DNA of 64,000 nt from the NCBI GenBank assembly GCA_001771815.1, contig MEPU01000004.1:434001-498000 (forward strand), read 5' to 3'. The stretch is from Bdellovibrionales bacterium RIFCSPHIGHO2_01_FULL_40_29. Lineage in GTDB: Bacteria; Bdellovibrionota; Bdellovibrionia; Bdellovibrionales; Bdellovibrionaceae. Shown here one piece after another: positions 46,481 through 63,304 of the stretch; the stretch's first letter is position 1; each line of letters begins with the position of its first letter. The notes below the pieces were generated by a model, which was not told where the DNA came from, searched no databases, and saw nothing but the letters and a program-made list of their open reading frames with translations. The position numbers and the translations under genes are program-made.

Positions 46481-47380
46481 CTATTTTTTTGAATTCCACT
46501 GGCGCTTGGTTTCTGCAATTGCCAAAGCCGCAGACACCGAAACGTTATAGCTAGCATCTGATGATAACTGCGGAATGCTCACTAATTCATCACAAATTTT
46601 CTCGGTTGTGGTTCTCAGACCTTTGTCCTCAGCACCCAAAACCCAAATGACTTTATCTGGGAACTGAATATCGTAAATTGTTTTTTTCGCTCGGTGACTG
46701 AGACCATAAACCCAAAATCCGGCTTGCTTGAGAGTCTCAAATGGCTGCTGAAATTGGTTGTTCCTATAAATGGGAACATGCTCAACACCACCGCAGGCGA
46801 CTTTGCTGACAGTTGCCGTAACACCCACAGCCCGGTCATCGGGAATTATGACTCCGTGCACACCCATCAACCAACTTGTTCTGAGAACAGCTCCCAAATT
46901 GTGCGGATCTTCGACACCGTCAAGAGCCACAACAAGTCCGTGATCTTCCCAACCCAAATCTTTGTAATTAAATTCTGGCGTCTCATTTGAAAAAACAACC
47001 GCCCCTTGATGCGAATGACACAATTGAAATAATTGAGCCTCTGGTTTTTCTTCGAATTTAATTTTCAGGGTATTCAATGAATCGACAATTTCTCGTAATT
47101 CCGCTGAAGTTTTCCAGTTATTTTGAAGGATAGCGGCCTGCACAGACCGAGGACGCTTGTGCAATAATTCCTTGATCGCATGAGTGCCAGCAACTTGACG
47201 CCAACTGCGAGGGAAAGCCGGCTTTGCTTCACGAGTAGACTCCGAACGAGATCGTTGCACTCCTGCACCCGAAGATGGGCCTTTTTTGCGGTCATTTAAA
47301 GACTGCGCTTCTGAAGCTTTTGCAAATTTATTTACAGGACTTTTTTTACCGAAGCCCTTTGGGCGAAATGGTTTTTTCAT
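46481..47380 (-). CDS. rlmB: SpoU/TrmH-family RNA 2'-O-methyltransferase (RlmB-like)
   Basis: The 299-aa protein uses SAM to methylate a ribose 2'-hydroxyl, most likely of G2251-type 23S rRNA or a related site. A basic, low-complexity N-terminus (1-60) precedes a short substrate-binding domain. The knotted SpoU domain shows all three motifs: DGVEDPHNLGAVLRT, WVLGAEDKGLR and LSSDASYNVSVSAALAI. RlmB and TrmH are hard to separate by eye; the N-terminal domain (VAGTHAIKELL) favours RlmB. It is the last gene of the rib-ntrYX-proS-pyrF run, 39 bp after pyrF. Confidence 0.85.
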   Translation of the reverse strand: MKKPFRPKGFGKKSPVNKFAKASEAQSLNDRKKGPSSGAGVQRSRSESTREAKPAFPRSWRQVAGTHAIKELLHKRPRSVQAAILQNNWKTSAELREIVDSLNTLKIKFEEKPEAQLFQLCHSHQGAVVFSNETPEFNYKDLGWEDHGLVVALDGVEDPHNLGAVLRTSWLMGVHGVIIPDDRAVGVTATVSKVACGGVEHVPIYRNNQFQQPFETLKQAGFWVYGLSHRAKKTIYDIQFPDKVIWVLGAEDKGLRTTTEKICDELVSIPQLSSDASYNVSVSAALAIAETKRQWNSKK

Positions 47381-47419: not shown

Positions 47420-48109
47420 CTAACAGCTCTCTAAAATCTCTAGAATTGTTTGTCGCGGCTGGGTTGATTTCAAGATGGTGCGACCCACAACTAAAGCTTG
47501 AGCTCCAGATTTCATGGCCTGCTTTGGTGTCATGACTCGTTTCTGATCTTGAGCCTCATCACTAGAAAGGCGGATTCCAGGTACAACCTTAAAGAAATCC
47601 TTTTGTGATAAAAACTCGAGCTCGTGTCCGGAGCAAACTAAACCGCGCAATCCCGATCTGTAAACTAGCTGAGATAAACTTCGTACATGATTTTCAACGG
47701 TCCATGAATGGAAATTTTCCGGGAATGAAGAATTTTCCCAGCTGGTCAGAATCGTTACCGCCAAAATTTTAAATGGCCGAATGCGATTGAGCTCAATCTC
47801 TAAGGCCGCAAGCCCTGTAAGCGCAACGAGTCCCGCCAGCGCATGAACAGTCACCAAGGTTGCCCCAGCTTGAAAACTGGCGCGAACGGCTGATTCCATC
47901 GTCGATGGAATATCAAAATACTTATTGTCGACAAAAACCGGAGCAATTTCTGAGAACTCCTGAACAAGGCTTGCTCCATACTTATAAACCAAGCGTGGAC
48001 CCACCTTCACTCCGCCAATCATATCACCAACATGATCCAAAATCTTTCGAGCATCTTCGATTGTATCGACATCCAAAGCTAAAATGACAGGATTTCGAAC
48101 AAAGGTCAT
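47420..48109 (-). CDS. pyrF: Orotidine 5'-phosphate decarboxylase
   Basis: This enzyme makes UMP from OMP, the last de novo pyrimidine step. The 229-aa protein has the catalytic tetrad region VDNKYFDIPST (Asp, Lys and Asp in DxKxxD), the N-terminal LALDVDT, the VTVHA strand and the C-terminal phosphate-binding VVPGIR and ALVVGRTI. It overlaps proS by 4 bp. Confidence 0.95.
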   Translation of the reverse strand: MTFVRNPVILALDVDTIEDARKILDHVGDMIGGVKVGPRLVYKYGASLVQEFSEIAPVFVDNKYFDIPSTMESAVRASFQAGATLVTVHALAGLVALTGLAALEIELNRIRPFKILAVTILTSWENSSFPENFHSWTVENHVRSLSQLVYRSGLRGLVCSGHELEFLSQKDFFKVVPGIRLSSDEAQDQKRVMTPKQAMKSGAQALVVGRTILKSTQPRQTILEILESC

Positions 48110-49833
48110 CGCAGCAAGTCCTCGACTTTGGCAACGATCTCATTTGGCGCCAACTTAACGATCTCTTTGGATTTTCGGTTCACCACTTCAATTTGACCGG
48201 CATCAAAACCTTTTCGACCAACAATCACTCGAACCGGGAAACCCAACAAATCCGCATCTTTAAACTTGATTCCAGGGCGCTCATCGCGATCATCCAGAAA
48301 AACTTCAATTTTCTTTTCTTCCAATGAGAGCTTCATCTTTTCAACATATCCAGAAAGCTCGACGTCCTTGGGGTCCAGCAAGCATATATGAACATGAAAT
48401 GGAGTGATGGCTCGTGGCCAAACAATTCCATCCTGATCGTGACTTTGTTCAATGGATGCCTGAACAGTTCGAGTGACTCCAATTCCGTAACATCCCATTT
48501 CATAAAACTGCGATCTGCCGTTTTTATCTAAAAATACACCGTTCATTTTTTGCGCGTATTTCTGTCCCAGATAAAAAACATGTCCAACTTCAATACCACG
48601 ATAAGACTTGAGGGTTCCATCAGACTCAGGACACTTGTCGCCTTCTTTTGCCATTCGCAAATCAGCAAATTTTGTAACTTGGTAATCAATTGCATGGTTT
48701 ACATTTTTAAAGTGAAATCCATCCTCGTTGGCACCAACAATATAATTACGAAGGGACTCTACGCCATGATCTGCATAAACCGGAATTTTTAATCCCACAG
48801 GTCCGCACGAACCGGGCATGGCTCCGCTGACCTCACGAACTTCATCATCAGTTAGCATTTGAGGCGGGTTCGTCATCCCGAGAAGATTTTTTACTTTGAT
48901 TGGATTCAACTCGTCGCTTCCGCGCAATAAAACCGCAAAAGCCTTAAGTGATTTTTCCTTCTGATCTTCATTAGCACTAAAAAATAATGTCTTAACAAGT
49001 TCATGAGCAGGAACTTGTGTGAAGGTTTCCAAATCAGCGATCGTTTTTTGACCAGGAGTTGCAAATTTTTCAACTGTTCGTGGTTGTGAATCTTTGGCCA
49101 CATAAGCCACAGCATCAATCGCAGGACAAACTTCGACATTGGCCGCAAAGTTTGTTTTCGTGCTAACAAGCAATGCATCCTCACCAGCTTCAGCCAACAA
49201 CTGAAACTCATGAGTTTGACTTCCACCTATGTTACCCGCATCGGCCTTAACAATTCTGTACTGAAGACCTAAACGATCAAAAATTCGCTCATAGGCCTTA
49301 TACATATCATCATAAGCTTTCAGAGCCCCCGCTTGATCGACATCAAACGAATAGGCGTCCTTCATAATAAATTCTCGACCGCGCATCAATCCAAAGCGTG
49401 GACGAATTTCATCTCTGTACTTTGTCTGAATTTGAAAAATATTTTTGGGAAAATCACGCCATGACTTTAAATCATGACGCACAAAATCCACGACGGCCTC
49501 TTCATGAGTGGCTCCCAAACAAAACTCGTGGTCATTTCGATTTTTAAATTTCAATAAACCGGCGCCCATTTCTTCCCAACGGTTGGTTTCTACCCAAAGT
49601 TCTTTGGGCTGAACCATTGGCATCAAGATTTCAATACCATTTACTTTAGCAAGCTCTTCTCGAATGATATTTTCAAATTTGCGAATGGCGCGCAATCCCA
49701 TGGCACTATAGGAATAAAGGCCCGGAGCTAATTTTTTCATAAGCCCCGCTCGCATCATCAACTTGTGGGATGGAATCTCCGCATCAGAAGGTGCTTCTTT
49801 ATAAGTAAAAAGATGTGTTTGGGTCCATTTCAT
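48106..49833 (-). CDS. proS: Prolyl-tRNA synthetase
   Basis: ProRS charges tRNA-Pro. The 575-aa protein is the bacterial type with a cis-editing insertion (near residues 225-400) between class II motifs 2 and 3. Motif 2 (FPKNIFQIQTKYRDEIRPRFG) and motif 3 (GCYGIGVTRTVQASIEQ) are clear, and an anticodon-binding domain follows. The 4-bp overlaps with ntrX upstream and pyrF downstream indicate one transcript. Confidence 0.97.
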   Translation of the reverse strand: MKWTQTHLFTYKEAPSDAEIPSHKLMMRAGLMKKLAPGLYSYSAMGLRAIRKFENIIREELAKVNGIEILMPMVQPKELWVETNRWEEMGAGLLKFKNRNDHEFCLGATHEEAVVDFVRHDLKSWRDFPKNIFQIQTKYRDEIRPRFGLMRGREFIMKDAYSFDVDQAGALKAYDDMYKAYERIFDRLGLQYRIVKADAGNIGGSQTHEFQLLAEAGEDALLVSTKTNFAANVEVCPAIDAVAYVAKDSQPRTVEKFATPGQKTIADLETFTQVPAHELVKTLFFSANEDQKEKSLKAFAVLLRGSDELNPIKVKNLLGMTNPPQMLTDDEVREVSGAMPGSCGPVGLKIPVYADHGVESLRNYIVGANEDGFHFKNVNHAIDYQVTKFADLRMAKEGDKCPESDGTLKSYRGIEVGHVFYLGQKYAQKMNGVFLDKNGRSQFYEMGCYGIGVTRTVQASIEQSHDQDGIVWPRAITPFHVHICLLDPKDVELSGYVEKMKLSLEEKKIEVFLDDRDERPGIKFKDADLLGFPVRVIVGRKGFDAGQIEVVNRKSKEIVKLAPNEIVAKVEDLLR

Positions 49834-51221
49834 ATATTGGCCTCGATCCCGTATGCTTTAATTTTACGATGGAGATAACTGCGCTCTAAACCGATGGCCT
49901 CTGCAGTTTTTGAAATATTGCCACCATTTTCTTGAATTTTTTTAATGAGATATTCCTTTTCAAATTCGGCACGAGCCTCACGAAAAGTGGACATGTCGCT
50001 CACTTCCACTGGTGAGTTGATTGCAGACTCTCGCTTATCAATCAAGCCCGCAAACCGCAAATCATGCACATCCACAAAATCAGATGGAGTTAAAATATAA
50101 ACTCGCTCAATAAAATTTTTCAATTCACGAACATTTCCTGGCCATGAGTGTTTCACTAAAAGTTTAATCCCTTGCTCTGAAATTGTTTTCCGCAAAGAGG
50201 CCATTTGTTTTGCGGCCAAATCACTAAAATGAACCACTAATGAATGAATGTCCTCAGGGCGCTCACGAAGGGGTGGTACAACCATATTTAAATTTTGTAT
50301 TAATTTTTCAAGCTCAGGATGAATTTTTCCACTTTTGACAAGTTGTTCTAAACGCAATGAAGCCGTTAGAAGCAATCGAGTTTCGGCTTGGTGCGTATCT
50401 GAACTGCCAAAGCGCTTAAATGTATTCGTTTTTAAAAACTGAACCACTTTTTCTTGAAGGACTATCGGCATCTCTTCAATTTCTTGGATTAATAGAGTTC
50501 CTCCGTCAATCAATTCAATTTTTCCACGACGCGTTTTATCGATTCCCGGCAAAGCTCCCTTTTCGATACCAAACAACTCGATTTCGATCAGATCCTGAGG
50601 CAATGTCGAACAATTGATATCTGAAAACGGCGCACTAGCGCGCGAACTCATGTAATGAATATTTTGCGCCACAAGTTCTCGACCGGCACCAACTTCACCT
50701 TGAATCAAAACAGAACCCACTGCTTTTGCAAACTCAGTCACTTGAGTTCGCACTTTATTCATAGCTTCTGACTCACCAACCAGAGCAATGCTTTTTCGGA
50801 GTTTATTCAAAAGCGCATTTTTCTCATCTTTTTCAGATTTGAGTTGCACAATGTGATCAATCGCCAAAGTGACTTTATCCAGCGAAAGAGGCTTTTCAAT
50901 AAAATCCCAGGCTCCAATTTTAGTTGCCTTGACTGCCGTTTCTATCGTTCCGTGCCCAGAAATCATCACAAATGAAGTCTCTGCAAACTGTGGCACAGCC
51001 AGAGTCAGGACTTCAATTCCATCCATCTTCGGCATCCAAATATCTAAAAAACAAACATCAGGTCTAAAATCTTTTAAACACTGCAATCCTGAAGGACCAT
51101 CCGGAGCCACTAAAACCTCGTAACCATCATCACGCAAACTTTCAGATAGAACCTCTCGGATTGGAGCCTCATCATCAATAATGAGAATCTTGATTTTATT
51201 TTTTTGGGCATGCAGTTCCAT
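49830..51221 (-). CDS. ntrX: NtrX-like response regulator with a degenerate sigma54-activator core
   Basis: The ATG at 51221 is chosen because GAGGAG lies 4 bp upstream; in-frame ATGs at 51242 and 51233 lack this. The 463-aa protein has a receiver domain (Asp16, Asp17, phosphoacceptor Asp60, Lys110), an AAA+ region (about 146-380) and a Fis-type helix-turn-helix at the C-terminus. The AAA+ motifs are changed: Walker A Lys is Arg181 (GEVGAGRE), GAFTGA reads GALPGI (222-227), Walker B Asp is Gln246, and the R-finger stretch RxDLYYRL reads HPELEKLI. ATP-driven sigma54 activation is therefore unlikely. The kinase gene ntrY is directly upstream. Confidence 0.88.
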   Translation of the reverse strand: MELHAQKNKIKILIIDDEAPIREVLSESLRDDGYEVLVAPDGPSGLQCLKDFRPDVCFLDIWMPKMDGIEVLTLAVPQFAETSFVMISGHGTIETAVKATKIGAWDFIEKPLSLDKVTLAIDHIVQLKSEKDEKNALLNKLRKSIALVGESEAMNKVRTQVTEFAKAVGSVLIQGEVGAGRELVAQNIHYMSSRASAPFSDINCSTLPQDLIEIELFGIEKGALPGIDKTRRGKIELIDGGTLLIQEIEEMPIVLQEKVVQFLKTNTFKRFGSSDTHQAETRLLLTASLRLEQLVKSGKIHPELEKLIQNLNMVVPPLRERPEDIHSLVVHFSDLAAKQMASLRKTISEQGIKLLVKHSWPGNVRELKNFIERVYILTPSDFVDVHDLRFAGLIDKRESAINSPVEVSDMSTFREARAEFEKEYLIKKIQENGGNISKTAEAIGLERSYLHRKIKAYGIEANI

Positions 51222-51242
51222 TTCGCTCCTCATTCCATTCAT

Positions 51243-53459
51243 TTAAACTGAATCAACAGGGATAATTGGCAATTCAATCACCATACTCGTGCCCTTTGGA
51301 GAATTCTCCAGGGCTCGAATCACTCCACTGTGGTCCTCAATAATACTCTTAACAATCGGCAATCCTAGTCCAGTACCTTTTTCTTTTGTCGAATAATAAG
51401 GTTCAAAAATACGCACTCGGTCACGATGCGGAATCCCCACCCCATTATCTGATATTGAAATTTTAAGCACTTTTAACCGCGAGTCATAGTGAGTGTAAAT
51501 TTTCACCTGCGGTGACTCGTCCTTGTGAACTGCATCGATAGCGTTCTCAATTAAATTAACGAGCACTCGACGAATTTGATCGGGATCAAACTTAAACTCT
51601 GGCAATGTGCTATCTAATGAAATATCAAAAGCAACTTGGGGATGATTGTCGACATAGATCTGTGCTGTATTTTTGACGACATCATTAATCTGCGCTGGGA
51701 CCGGCTTGATTTGTGGAAGTCTTGCGAACTGACTGAACTCGTTCACAAGTAAACGCATGTCATCGACTTGATTAACGATCATTTTTATAGAGTCTGAAAA
51801 TGCAGGATCCTGTATTTGACCGCCAAACTTTTTTGCGATTCTCTCTGCCGCCAAACGGATAGGTGTCAGGGGATTTTTAATCTCGTGAGCAATTCGCCGA
51901 GCCACCTCAGTCCATGCGGCCGCCCGCTGCGCATTTACAATCGGAGTCATATCATCAAAAACCATGATACGACCAATTTCTGCTTTATTCTCATCAACCA
52001 ATAAAGAAATATGAATTGAAAGTGGAATGGTATCTTGCCCCACTTGAATACGCTGCTCTTTTTGCAAACTCATCAGTGAATTTTCCTGCATAAACTTAAC
52101 AATATTTGAAAATAATTTGTAATTTTCATCACTCATGGTGGTGCGAATATGTTTCCCCGTGAATTGTGTGGGGTCGACTTGCAAAAGTTCACCAGCTCGA
52201 CGATTCATCGTCGCAATCTGTCCATTCATATCTACCGAAATCACACCCGCGCTGACATTTTTCAATACGATCTCAACATAACGCGTGTACTGATTTAAAT
52301 TTTTAAGAGTCTGTTGCAATTCCAGTTCAGAACTCGAAAGATTAGTGATCATTTGATTGAAGTTACCAATCAAACTGCTGATTTCTTCGCTGCCTGAAGA
52401 AATTTCCAATGGAGAATAATCCCCTGCAGCAACCCGCTTTGTGGCCCGACCAAGCTGCACTAATGGAATCGAAAGTTGCCTTGCCAGATAAAAACCAAAC
52501 CACACTGCCGCGAATAGAATAACCAGCGTCATCACAATCAGCATGATGAAATATATAGATTTGAGTGGATACTCAACCAATGAATTGTTATGAAATTCTT
52601 GATAGGCTCCAACGATGTCATCAAACTTTGACCCCGGAGTGAGATTTAAGAACTTTGTCACCACAATGACGCCAGAATCCGAGTTTTTATCGACCGGCAC
52701 CATCAATCGCAGCAAGTTGTAGTCTCCAAAAATCTGAATAATGCTGGCTTCATCGCGACCAACCAATCCCCGCTGTAAAAACTCAAAATTAAGTGATGGC
52801 ACAATATCTGAGTTCAACTCGGGATCTTGAGACACCAGTCGATCGGCTACCAAACTATCATAGTACTCAATTGCATCGAGCTTATAAAGAGCACGAATTT
52901 GTTCCAACTTATTCAGTCGAGAAGCGTCTGCCGCGCCTTTGACTTGTTTGATAGAAAGCCGAGCGTACTCGTAGCCACGTTTTTTTTCGTTGGCAATAAA
53001 TGTATCGATCACTTCTGAAGCATTCCGCAAAACCGATAGCATCCGTTGTGAAAACCATTTTTCAAAACTGCTATTCAGATAAAATACAGAAATGATAAAA
53101 ACCAACAAAGTTGGAATCACCGAAAAAGACACAAAAGAAACAATGAGTTTGGATTTAAGTGAAGAACCAAATATTTTACTGCGCCGCTCGATAAATACTT
53201 TAACAACATTTCGAAAAATTAAAAACAGCAGCAAGAGAACAAGGATTAAATTAACGTTCACTAAACCAATAAAAAATAGAACATACGAGGATGGTAAGTT
53301 TTGACCCGAACGAAAAATATAAACTTCCACACCGATCAAAAAAGCCAAAAGAATAGACAACGCAAATATAAAGAATATCTCGCGCTTTCGTTTGCTCAAT
53401 TCTTGCTTGCGATCGCTGCTGGCTTGATTTTTTAACAGCTGTTTATTTTTTTCTGACAT
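51243..53459 (-). CDS. ntrY: NtrY-like membrane histidine kinase
   Basis: The 738-aa protein has three N-terminal membrane helices (within 25-125), a periplasmic segment of about 160 residues, and a fourth helix near 303-325. A HAMP domain, a PAS domain (ILKNVSAGVISVDMNGQIATMNRR), a HisKA domain with the phospho-His in RRIAHEIKNPLTPIRLA, and a HATPase domain (NLIENAIDA, DNGVGIP, GTGLGLPIVK) follow. This is the NtrY layout. It ends 21 bp before the preferred ntrX start and begins 6 bp after ribH. The signal it senses is unknown. Confidence 0.9.
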   Translation of the reverse strand: MSEKNKQLLKNQASSDRKQELSKRKREIFFIFALSILLAFLIGVEVYIFRSGQNLPSSYVLFFIGLVNVNLILVLLLLFLIFRNVVKVFIERRSKIFGSSLKSKLIVSFVSFSVIPTLLVFIISVFYLNSSFEKWFSQRMLSVLRNASEVIDTFIANEKKRGYEYARLSIKQVKGAADASRLNKLEQIRALYKLDAIEYYDSLVADRLVSQDPELNSDIVPSLNFEFLQRGLVGRDEASIIQIFGDYNLLRLMVPVDKNSDSGVIVVTKFLNLTPGSKFDDIVGAYQEFHNNSLVEYPLKSIYFIMLIVMTLVILFAAVWFGFYLARQLSIPLVQLGRATKRVAAGDYSPLEISSGSEEISSLIGNFNQMITNLSSSELELQQTLKNLNQYTRYVEIVLKNVSAGVISVDMNGQIATMNRRAGELLQVDPTQFTGKHIRTTMSDENYKLFSNIVKFMQENSLMSLQKEQRIQVGQDTIPLSIHISLLVDENKAEIGRIMVFDDMTPIVNAQRAAAWTEVARRIAHEIKNPLTPIRLAAERIAKKFGGQIQDPAFSDSIKMIVNQVDDMRLLVNEFSQFARLPQIKPVPAQINDVVKNTAQIYVDNHPQVAFDISLDSTLPEFKFDPDQIRRVLVNLIENAIDAVHKDESPQVKIYTHYDSRLKVLKISISDNGVGIPHRDRVRIFEPYYSTKEKGTGLGLPIVKSIIEDHSGVIRALENSPKGTSMVIELPIIPVDSV

Positions 53460-53465
53460 GAATCC

Positions 53466-53942
53466 TTATATTGATTTGATTTCTTTCAGAAGTCCAATCA
53501 TCTCGACGACAACCTGAGCAGATTCGTAGCCCTTATTTCCCTGATCTCCTCCCGCTCGAGCCAAGGCTTGATCTTCGTTTTCGGTTGTTAAAACGCCAAA
53601 ACCGACTGGTTTACTGAATTGCAGCATTAATTCTGAGCAACCTCGCTCTACAGATTGGCAAACATAATCATAGTGCGTCGTTTCGCCACGAATTACAGCC
53701 CCTAGTGCCACAGCTCCATCGATTTTTTTGGTTTGAAAGAGGGCTTGAATAGCCAAAGGGATTTCAATGGCCCCAGGAACGCGGACAGAAAATATTTCGG
53801 CCCCAATTTCTTCTAAAAAATCAAAGGCACCGTCTTCTAATTTTGTGGTGATCTCTTCGTTAAAACGAGATGTGACAACTGCAATGCGTAGTGGTTTTGT
53901 TTTCACTTTTTTAGAGACTTTAGCCGGCTTGGATTTCTTCAT
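53466..53942 (-). CDS. ribH: 6,7-dimethyl-8-ribityllumazine synthase
   Basis: Lumazine synthase condenses the ribityl-pyrimidine with dihydroxybutanone phosphate, the step before riboflavin synthase. The 158-aa protein has VTSRFNEEIT, PGAIEIPLAIQAL, the GAVIRGETTHYDYVC motif and GVLTTENEDQALARAGG. A Lys-rich N-terminal extension (KSKPAKVSKKVKTK) is unusual in amount. Its start overlaps the ribB stop by 4 bp. Confidence 0.97.
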   Translation of the reverse strand: MKKSKPAKVSKKVKTKPLRIAVVTSRFNEEITTKLEDGAFDFLEEIGAEIFSVRVPGAIEIPLAIQALFQTKKIDGAVALGAVIRGETTHYDYVCQSVERGCSELMLQFSKPVGFGVLTTENEDQALARAGGDQGNKGYESAQVVVEMIGLLKEIKSI

Positions 53943-54547
53943 AATTTTTTCCTGTAACTGATTAAATCAGCAATTGAACCAATTTTTAAATCAAACTTTT
54001 TAGCAAAAATTTTTAACTCCGGTAGGCGCGCCATTGAACCGTCATCGTTGATCACTTCACAGATGATACTGGCTGGTGAAAGACCGGACAGGATGGCTAA
54101 ATCAACACTGGCTTCCGTGTGACCAGGGCGCCCCAAAACTCCGTCCGGATTTGCACGCAGTGGAAATATATGTCCCGGGCAAATAACATCACTGGGTTTA
54201 GCTAGCGGATGTGAAGCTACTTTTATAGTATGAGCGCGATCGGCTGCCGAAATCCCCGTAGTGACTCCGGTACTGGCTTCAATACTATACGTGAAAGCGG
54301 TGTTCGTCATACCCACCTGATGTTGGGCGGACTTCATCATCGGCAACTGCAGTCGATCAACTTGTTGGGGAGATAACGCAAGACAAATCAAACCGCGGGC
54401 CTCCTTAGCTAAAAAATTAACGGCGTTTGCCGTGACAAAATCAGCCGCTAAAATAAGGTCCCCTTCATTTTCACGATCTTCATCATCAACAAGGATGACA
54501 AATTTTCCATTTTTAAAATCCGCAAGAATTTCATCAATTGAATTCAT
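53939..54547 (-). CDS. ribB: 3,4-dihydroxy-2-butanone 4-phosphate synthase
   Basis: This enzyme makes the four-carbon unit of riboflavin from ribulose 5-phosphate. The 202-aa protein shows the catalytic [11 protein letters not shown] loop, [17 protein letters not shown] and [12 protein letters not shown]. It is a stand-alone RibB; the GTP cyclohydrolase II half seen in RibBA fusions is absent. ribD and ribA are not in the window. It overlaps both ribE and ribH by 4 bp. Confidence 0.97.
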
Positions 54548-55155
54548 AGTGCTTCCTTCCCGCGCGATTCGATATAGGCTTTCGCTAAATAATCCGCTTC
54601 AATATTAACGAAATCGCCTGGTTTGTACTGCGCTAAATTGGTCGATTGAATCGTCTCTGGAATTAGGCAAACTTCAATACGACAACCAACTTTGTTCCGT
54701 TTCACTTCGTTCACGGTCAAACTGACGCCATTTAAACAAACTGATCCTTTTTTCCAAAAATATTTTTGGATGGCAGTTGGAACTTCCAATTCCATCTGCC
54801 AACAATCACCTTGCCTATAGCTTTTGAGAACTTTTGAAATGGCATCAACATGACCTGTCACTAGATGACCATGAACGCGACTGCCAAACTGTAATGATTG
54901 CTCCAAATTTAATGGGTATTTTTTCCAAAATACAAACTGCTTTGATAAAACTTTGAGGGTCTCTGAGCCCAAACAAAAGCGAATTGTTTTTGTCGAGAGC
55001 TTCTCTACTGTAAGACAAACCCCATTCGTTGAAATGCTGTCGCCAATTTGCAAATCTTTAAAACTTGAAGGTCTCGCAATATCAATACGAAGACTTTCAC
55101 GAGCTGGAGTGCTTTTGATTATTTTTGATTGTGCCTGAATGATCCCTGAAAACAT
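54544..55155 (-). CDS. ribE: Riboflavin synthase (alpha subunit)
   Basis: Riboflavin synthase dismutates two lumazines to riboflavin. The 203-aa protein has the two tandem lumazine-binding barrels: MFSGIIQAQ with [14 protein letters not shown] in the first, and [11 protein letters not shown] with [13 protein letters not shown] in the second. It is the first gene of the rib run. No FMN riboswitch was recognised in the 59 bp upstream. Confidence 0.96.
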
Positions 55156-62233: not shown

Positions 62234-63304
62234 TTAATCTTTAACTGGTTTTGAATGAACAGCATATTTTTCGAATTCGCCGTATTCATGCAATTTGTTG
62301 TATAGCGTTTTGATCGTGATACCCAAACCTTGAGCGGCTTGAGTTTTATTTCCACCGTAATGTCCCAGCGCTTTCAAAATATAACGTTTTTCCAAATCAT
62401 ACAATGGCACCGCTGGATCAAATTCCAAGCCTTCTTCTTTGACTTCTGGATTACGAATAGATTCTGGAAGATCATTCACCATAATCGTGTGACCTTCAGA
62501 TAGAATCTGCAAACGCTCACAAGCATTTTGCAATTCTCGAATATTTCCTGGCCATTCATATTTTGTTAATATCTTCATGGCCTCTTCATCAATCGTTTTT
62601 CCACGATTCATGAATGAATGAGATCCACCATTCAAGAAATGATTCACCAATGCCGGGATATCTTCTTTTCGACGTCGCAATGGCGGAGCACTCACGACAA
62701 TTGTATTAATGCGATAAAATAAATCTTCACGGAAATTTCCACGAACAACTTCTTGATCGAGCTCGCGATTCGTTGCACAAACTAAACGAATATCCACCTT
62801 GATTGAGTCTTTACCACCGACGCGAAAAATTTCGCCTTCCTGAATAAATCGCAGAAGCTTGGCCTGAATCGCAAGCGGCAACTCACCCACTTCATCCAAG
62901 AATAATGTTCCACCATTTGCGGCTTCGGCTAAGCCAATTTTTCGGCTGTAGGCACCCGTAAATGAACCCTTCTCATGCCCGAAAAGCTCCGATTCTAAAA
63001 GTGTTTCTCTTAAAGCACCACAATTGATCGCTACAAAAGGCTTATTCCGACGTTGTGATTTTTCATGAACCGCGCGAGCGATAAGCTCTTTCCCTGTCCC
63101 AGATTCTCCAAGTACCAAAACATTGGCTTGCGAAGGTGATACACGCTCAATCATTTTCATTAACTGAGTCATGATATCAGATTTATAAATAATAGTTCGA
63201 GCCTCAGGAACGACTTTGTTTTGGACCGGCGCCCATGTAGGGATTTGGGTCTGGTTTTGAGAGCTTGGCAAATGGGGCAAAGCTGAAGAATTAGAATCTG
63301 ACAT
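62234..63304 (-). CDS. Sigma54-dependent activator without receiver domain
   Basis: The 356-aa protein has about 40 N-terminal Ser/Gln/Pro-rich residues with no receiver. A complete AAA+ activator core follows: Walker A GESGTGKE, the sigma54-contact loop GSFTGA, Walker B GGTLFLDE and the R-finger stretch FREDLFYRIN. A Fis-type helix-turn-helix (NKTQAAQGLGITIKTLYNKL) closes the chain. It should open sigma54 promoters by ATP hydrolysis, as PspF does without a receiver. Control is then likely by a partner protein or by its own level. Its target genes are not evident. Confidence 0.92.
   Translation of the reverse strand: MSDSNSSALPHLPSSQNQTQIPTWAPVQNKVVPEARTIIYKSDIMTQLMKMIERVSPSQANVLVLGESGTGKELIARAVHEKSQRRNKPFVAINCGALRETLLESELFGHEKGSFTGAYSRKIGLAEAANGGTLFLDEVGELPLAIQAKLLRFIQEGEIFRVGGKDSIKVDIRLVCATNRELDQEVVRGNFREDLFYRINTIVVSAPPLRRRKEDIPALVNHFLNGGSHSFMNRGKTIDEEAMKILTKYEWPGNIRELQNACERLQILSEGHTIMVNDLPESIRNPEVKEEGLEFDPAVPLYDLEKRYILKALGHYGGNKTQAAQGLGITIKTLYNKLHEYGEFEKYAVHSKPVKD

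Follow-up and report, generated by a model that had tools for sequence, protein, structure and literature searches.

NtrX of a Bdellovibrionales bacterium: a conserved response regulator with an eroded AAA+ core, and repeated loss of the sigma-54 contact loop among its relatives

The ntrYX locus and the identity of NtrX

The window, which is the whole stretch of 64,000 nucleotides considered in the current analysis, encodes on its minus strand a response regulator, NtrX, and a sensor kinase, NtrY. The two genes lie inside an operon of riboflavin genes, proS and pyrF, whose names are assigned by sequence recognition.

46481-47380, minus strand: rRNA methyltransferase, downstream operon gene
47420-48109, minus strand: pyrF, downstream operon gene
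48106-49833, minus strand: proS, downstream of ntrX
49830-51242, minus strand: ntrX, open frame for a response regulator of 470 residues with receiver (REC), AAA+ alpha/beta core, lid and Fis-type helix-turn-helix (HTH)
51243-53459, minus strand: ntrY, sensor kinase with H525 and the N, G1, F and G2 boxes intact (matches to NtrY_N, HAMP, PAS, HisKA and HATPase_c)
53466-53942, minus strand: ribH, upstream operon gene
53939-54547, minus strand: ribB, upstream operon gene
54544-55155, minus strand: ribE, upstream operon gene
62234-63304, minus strand: receiver-less activator used for comparison, with intact GESGTGKE, GSFTGA, FLDE and FREDLFYR

The start of ntrX is the base right after the stop of ntrY, and in the window there is no room for a promoter directly 5' of ntrY. 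A promoter scan of the ntrYX operon gave matches no more numerous than in shuffled sequences. Across the phylum ntrY adjoins ntrX and the catalytic residues of NtrY are near-invariant. The order ribB-ribH-ntrY-ntrX-proS-pyrF is common to the taxonomic order, whether or not the motifs of NtrX are intact, and the ntrX loci are therefore orthologues.

The protein encoded at 49830-51242 has Pfam matches to Response_reg, Sigma54_activat (146 bits), AAA_lid_14 and HTH_8. Its top NCBIfam model is that of NtrX (NF051870), matched with 374 bits, which is under the cut-off of 600 bits presumably set on Pseudomonadota proteins. The top PDB match by sequence is 5m7n (E-value 1.8e-87), which we take to be the full-length NtrX of Brucella. 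A tree of 58 proteins (quick search, LG+G4) groups it with NtrY-paired proteins of many phyla, including the alphaproteobacterial NtrX, with an SH-aLRT support of 97, and all 11 activator paralogues of its own genome fall outside this clade. A second, canonical NtrX was sought in the genome and ruled out, the next best paralogue sharing only 33% identity. By these comparisons the product is a true NtrX.

Motif changes in the AAA+ core and selection on NtrX

The residues of NtrX are numbered here from the ATG at 51242, and canonical sites are those at least 90% conserved in NtrX proteins with intact motifs. The domains and motifs of the protein are as follows.

50841-51194, minus strand: receiver domain, residues 17-134, phospho-acceptor D67, with the conserved receiver residues
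50268-50786, minus strand: eroded AAA+ alpha/beta core, residues 153-325
50658-50699, minus strand: Walker A region, GEVGAGRELVAQNI, Lys188 changed to Arg
50523-50573, minus strand: former sigma-54 contact loop with flanks, residues 224-240, FGIEKGALPGIDKTRRG against FGxEKGAFTGA
50466-50504, minus strand: Walker B region, GGTLLIQEIEEMP, Asp253 changed to Gln and Glu254 kept
50283-50330, minus strand: lost R-finger segment, residues 305-320, inside the drifting stretch 296-320
50052-50267, minus strand: AAA+ lid subdomain (residues 326-397), in which the genus retains 15 of 16 canonical sites
49839-49973, minus strand: Fis-type HTH DNA-binding domain (residues 424-468), with all 15 canonical sites retained

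The original prediction for 50080-50790, which corresponds to residues about 152-388 and hence to the AAA+ domain, was of four altered motifs in an otherwise intact regulator, and all four changes are present in the sequence. The Walker A motif reads GEVGAGRE with Arg188 at the position of the canonical Lys, loop 1 (residues 229-234) reads GALPGI at the position of GAFTGA, and the Walker B motif reads LLIQE, in which Q253 replaces the Asp and E254 is intact. The R-finger segment is GKIHPELEKLIQNLNM as against GRFREDLYYRLNVIPF in active relatives (core IHPELEKLIQN against the canonical FREDLYYRLNV) and has no R-finger Arg. The P-loop glycines are kept along with E254. The residues earlier numbered Arg181 and Gln246 are R188 and Q253, the earlier numbers being 7 lower because they were counted from a start 7 codons downstream. 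The protein thus lacks the GAFTGA loop, the Walker A Lys, the Asp-Glu pair of Walker B and the R-finger Arg pair by which a sigma-54 activator is recognised, and with the four engine motifs altered it is very probably unable to act as an ATP-driven activator of this kind, as had been proposed.

The ends of the protein are intact, again in agreement with the prediction. The receiver residues D23, D24, D67, S95 and K117 are present and are invariant in all 105-106 orthologues of the phylum that have a residue at the position, and the residues of the HTH (NISKTAEAIGLERSYLHRKIKAYGI) are kept.

The activator at 62234-63304, against which NtrX had been contrasted, retains the Lys, the Asp-Glu and both Arg, as do the ten other full sigma-54-type activators encoded in the genome, and the contrast is real. 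One of these activators (L010, G000:C5:82968-83471) has GAFTSA for GAFTGA, with its other motifs intact. Sigma-54 is encoded in the genome of the window and in 56 of the 60 genomes searched, and three of the four genomes with no match are less than 90% complete. Loss of sigma-54 as the cause of the change in NtrX is rejected, sigma-54 being present; since the other activators are intact as well, the loss is specific to NtrX. Sequencing error was also considered as a source of the changed motifs and rejected. All 13 other members of the genus that were read carry R188, which together with the low dN/dS of the closest pair argues against both chance and error.

Within the genus no folded domain is less conserved than the AAA+ core, whose mean identity is 62% as against 78% in REC, 85% in the lid and 94% in the HTH. 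Canonical relatives in the order have their highest mean identity in the core (77%, with 64% in REC and 76% in the HTH). Only 30 of 84 canonical core sites are kept in the genus, as against 64 of 67 in receiver, lid and HTH (Fisher p about 1.6e-15, with sites treated as independent). The closest pair within the genus has a dN/dS of 0.038 overall and 0.056 in the AAA+ core at a dS near 0.9, with zero replacement changes in the HTH, so that ntrX is not a dying gene. These values indicate a functional ntrX with an AAA+ core that is relaxed yet still constrained.

The most conserved stretch of the core in the genus is the rewritten loop itself. Residues 224-240 (FGIEKGxLPGIDKTRxG) are invariant at 15 of 17 positions, whereas residues 296-320, which comprise L2 and the R-fingers, are invariant at 1 of 25. 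Pro occupies the position of the GAFTGA Thr in most family members. Genus g6, which belongs to the same family, has 11 of 17 invariant positions in the loop and shows no special conservation of it; because the pattern is absent there, it is treated as a lead, namely that the former sigma-54 contact may have taken on a new sequence that has since been preserved, with drift going on in the ATPase parts. Being rewritten and the most conserved part of the core, the loop (GxLPGIDKTR) may have a new job.

Distribution and order of the losses

Of 60 near relatives, 58 have a clear NtrX orthologue. With a threshold of E 1e-70, 124 of 192 genomes sampled over the phylum gave matches, the weakest of which are paralogues. 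The assignment to Bdellovibrionota is based on paralogues in common with a Bacteriovoracaceae record and on the group codes of the genomes. In f15, a Bacteriovoracia-like family, at least 18 of the listed genomes have no match at this threshold, and NtrYX may therefore be missing in this family. In all, 113 orthologues were read in addition to the NtrX of the window; many of the genomes are fragmented.

Among the phylum's other classes 27 NtrX were read, and 26 of these keep every motif. A lone representative of one such class (L134; G073, f13 g63), on a very long branch, has lost GAFTGA (SHPKAG) and the first R-finger and has kept Walker A and B. In the order of the window GAFTGA is intact in families f3, f5 and f7, in most of f10 and in parts of f4 and f6, and is lost in f8, f9, f2 and the other parts of f4 and f6. 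One NtrX of f2 is altered in the first Gly of the motif and nowhere else in it. GAFTGA is absent from all 53 NtrX read in the own family, f1. Loss of the Walker A Lys is confined to the own genus, all members of which have Arg, and to genera g11 and g20.

A genome of 1.2 Mb (L108; G186, f4 g48) encodes a strongly eroded NtrX with no HTH match, and a second small genome of its genus (G213) gives a weak NtrX match only. In one genome of the window's genus (L079 / L033; G010:C16:3353-4743) ntrX has a frame break near residue 310, in the drifting R-finger region, which is either an assembly error or a true break.

The losses were placed on a tree of 106 proteins built from NtrY and the receiver and HTH of NtrX, with the AAA+ core left out. 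This tree came from a quick search, and as 33 of its 103 inner branches have support below 80 the exact counts are soft. For GAFTGA a minimum of 7 losses is counted from independent pairs on well-supported branches alone; parsimony gives 11 and Dollo, where regain is forbidden, 13. The corresponding numbers by parsimony and with regain forbidden are 11 and 13 for changes of the Walker B Asp, 17 and 18 for the R-fingers, and 3 and 3 for the Walker A Lys.

All 40 of the GAFTGA-bearing NtrX in this set keep Walker A, Walker B and the R-fingers, and the 66 that have lost GAFTGA fall into graded classes covering all stages of decay. The fraction of canonical core sites kept is 0.95-1.0 in the intact NtrX, a high score that is partly built in as the canonical set was chosen by intact motifs, and 0.36-0.82 in all but one of the others. 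As a control, receiver, lid and HTH sites were selected by the same rule, and their scores remain high in nearly all NtrX. The exception (L052; G056, f10 g38) has GSFAG with one codon missing, keeps 0.95 of the core sites and has intact sisters; it is likely a fresh loss of GAFTGA and possibly a first step of decay.

These patterns indicate that the sigma-54 contact loop is lost first, before the other parts of the engine. A sign test on phylogenetic pairs, of GAFTGA loss against loss of Walker B or of the R-fingers, gave about 4.4 and about 4.2 of 7 pairs in this direction and none opposite, the pairs being too few to reach p 0.05. That NtrX of this order went repeatedly from ATP-powered to ATP-free by a fixed sequence, with the loop followed by Walker B and the R-fingers and lastly by the P-loop Lys, and that the loop of the own genus was refitted as a new, constrained contact surface, is as a combined reading unlikely but not negligible. 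Comparison across the phylum, which had been suggested for placing the losses, thus shows them to be repeated and ordered. The losses do occur together in the NtrX of the window, as was originally stated; the relatives reveal an order within them. The family-wide, repeated nature of the change, the early loss of the loop and its conservation in a new form had escaped notice.

Proposed function, its alternatives and significance

The nearest known systems are the NtrX of Alphaproteobacteria (Brucella 5m7n, Caulobacter, Sinorhizobium), which resemble the NtrX of the window in their NtrY partner, in the REC-AAA+-HTH layout and in having no GAFTGA. The recognition helices are alike (MERSALHRKLK against LERSYLHRKIK). 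In the alphaproteobacterial proteins read, the loop is deleted and the Lys, the Asp-Glu and both R-finger Arg are kept, whereas in the window's NtrX the loop is substituted and the nucleotide site and R-fingers have gone as well, which makes the latter the more eroded. The Brucella protein (J Mol Biol 2017) reportedly binds ATP but has no ATPase activity. Shared ancestry of the two loop losses is rejected, the alphaproteobacterial clade being separate and GAFTGA being kept in other phyla and in the other classes of Bdellovibrionota; the loss in the latter phylum is therefore independent. Canonical NtrX of Myxococcota, Nitrospirota, Thermodesulfobacteriota, Acidobacteriota and the other Bdellovibrionota classes share the NtrY-NtrX pairing, about 35-45% identity and a similar HTH. 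Unlike the window's NtrX they have intact Walker motifs and R-fingers, with GAFTGA intact or, in two acidobacterial proteins (GSFTNA and GAFSGA), nearly intact, and are presumed to be sigma-54 activators.

GAFTGA mutants are generally unable to activate (PMC7175178). Caulobacter NtrX lacks the motif (PMC10274813), and the phosphorylated form of alphaproteobacterial NtrX binds CAAN2-5TTG and reduces transcription from starts overlapped by the site (PMC9223101). Proteins of the NtrC type that have lost the sigma-54 loop, namely the NtrC of Caulobacter and Rhodobacter and VspR, act at sigma-70 promoters (PMC10274813); they belong to another family than NtrX, and the Caulobacter NtrC remains dependent on its Walker A and B residues, that of Rhodobacter on ATP binding.

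By analogy with the alphaproteobacterial NtrX, that of the window is probably a DNA-binding regulator switched by phosphorylation and working without sigma-54. Our preferred reading, to which we give a probability of about 0.7, is an ATP-independent, phosphorylation-switched regulator derived from an ATP-driven sigma-54 activator. Its basis is directly observed: the motif losses, the intact residues of receiver, HTH and NtrY, the purifying selection, the retained sigma-54 and the ordered, repeated loss. We infer a protein without ATPase activity. NtrY would phosphorylate D67, which would alter the NtrX dimer and change the binding of its two HTH domains to palindromic sites. Bound NtrX would regulate sigma-54-independent promoters, most simply by blocking or competing at promoters of the sigma-70 type, and at some promoters activation through contact with RNA polymerase is possible. 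The AAA+ core would persist as a folded spacer and scaffold, although the conserved loop argues for its being something more. Against a loss of the nucleotide site speak the retained E254 and P-loop glycines, and nucleotide binding persists in some AAA+ proteins whose Walker A is altered. With the Lys, the Asp-Glu and the R-fingers all gone here, even a function dependent on ATP binding, as reported for Rhodobacter NtrC, is doubtful. In the intergenic DNA of the window CAAN3-5TTG occurs 10 times as against 5.2 expected from mononucleotide shuffles (11 of 300 reach this number), a weak and composition-dependent excess. No biochemistry, expression data or target was found in the papers searched for any NtrX of the order; those naming NtrX with Bdellovibrio, or Bdellovibrio with enhancer binding proteins, deal with other subjects as judged by their titles and abstracts.

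A repressor, a sigma-70 regulator and a decoy had been offered as possible roles. A repressor or a regulator of sigma-70-type promoters fits best, because this is how the alphaproteobacterial NtrX without GAFTGA works and because no part of the protein is more conserved than the HTH. A decoy, a poison subunit that enters mixed rings and damps active sigma-54 activators, would find eleven intact activators in the genome and has a core that still fits the profile of the fold; it is very improbable, since the inter-subunit L2 and R-finger stretch is the very region that drifts most freely, and a decoy would need neither the highly conserved DNA-binding domain nor the kinase that NtrX has kept. 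An unlikely but not negligible alternative is activation through the rewritten loop 1, which would make a new contact, independent of nucleotide, with a partner such as RNA polymerase or with a different region of NtrX itself. The invariance of the loop, which only 4 of 10,000 shuffles reach, its contrast with the R-finger stretch and the widespread Pro speak for such a contact; the shuffles ignore the usual conservation of loop flanks in the AAA+ fold, however, and genus g6 does not share the pattern.

Activation of sigma-54 promoters by an unusual route has a precedent in Caulobacter, where strains carrying HTH mutants of NtrC, itself without GAFTGA, switch on some of the sigma-54 flagellar genes (PMC12421884). 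For NtrX this is barely credible, as no ATP-driven remodelling is to be expected once the nucleotide site and R-fingers are also lost. The least credible reading is a functionless gene in decay. The frame break in one genus member (G010, L079) and the missing HTH match in the small-genome lineage (L108) would suit it, but the dN/dS, the near-invariance of REC and HTH over 106 proteins and the wide retention of the orthologue among near relatives are against it.

Alphaproteobacteria had already provided examples of NtrX lacking GAFTGA, in which the ATP site is retained. What is new is a second phylum with many separate losses, ranging from a loop that has only recently broken down to a nucleotide site that is dead, in which intact relatives serve as controls and the DNA-binding domain is almost unchanged. 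A label of sigma-54 dependence given by a Pfam match can mislead for a whole bacterial family. The group also makes it testable what role an enhancer-binding protein takes after leaving sigma-54, and whether its target promoters change too.
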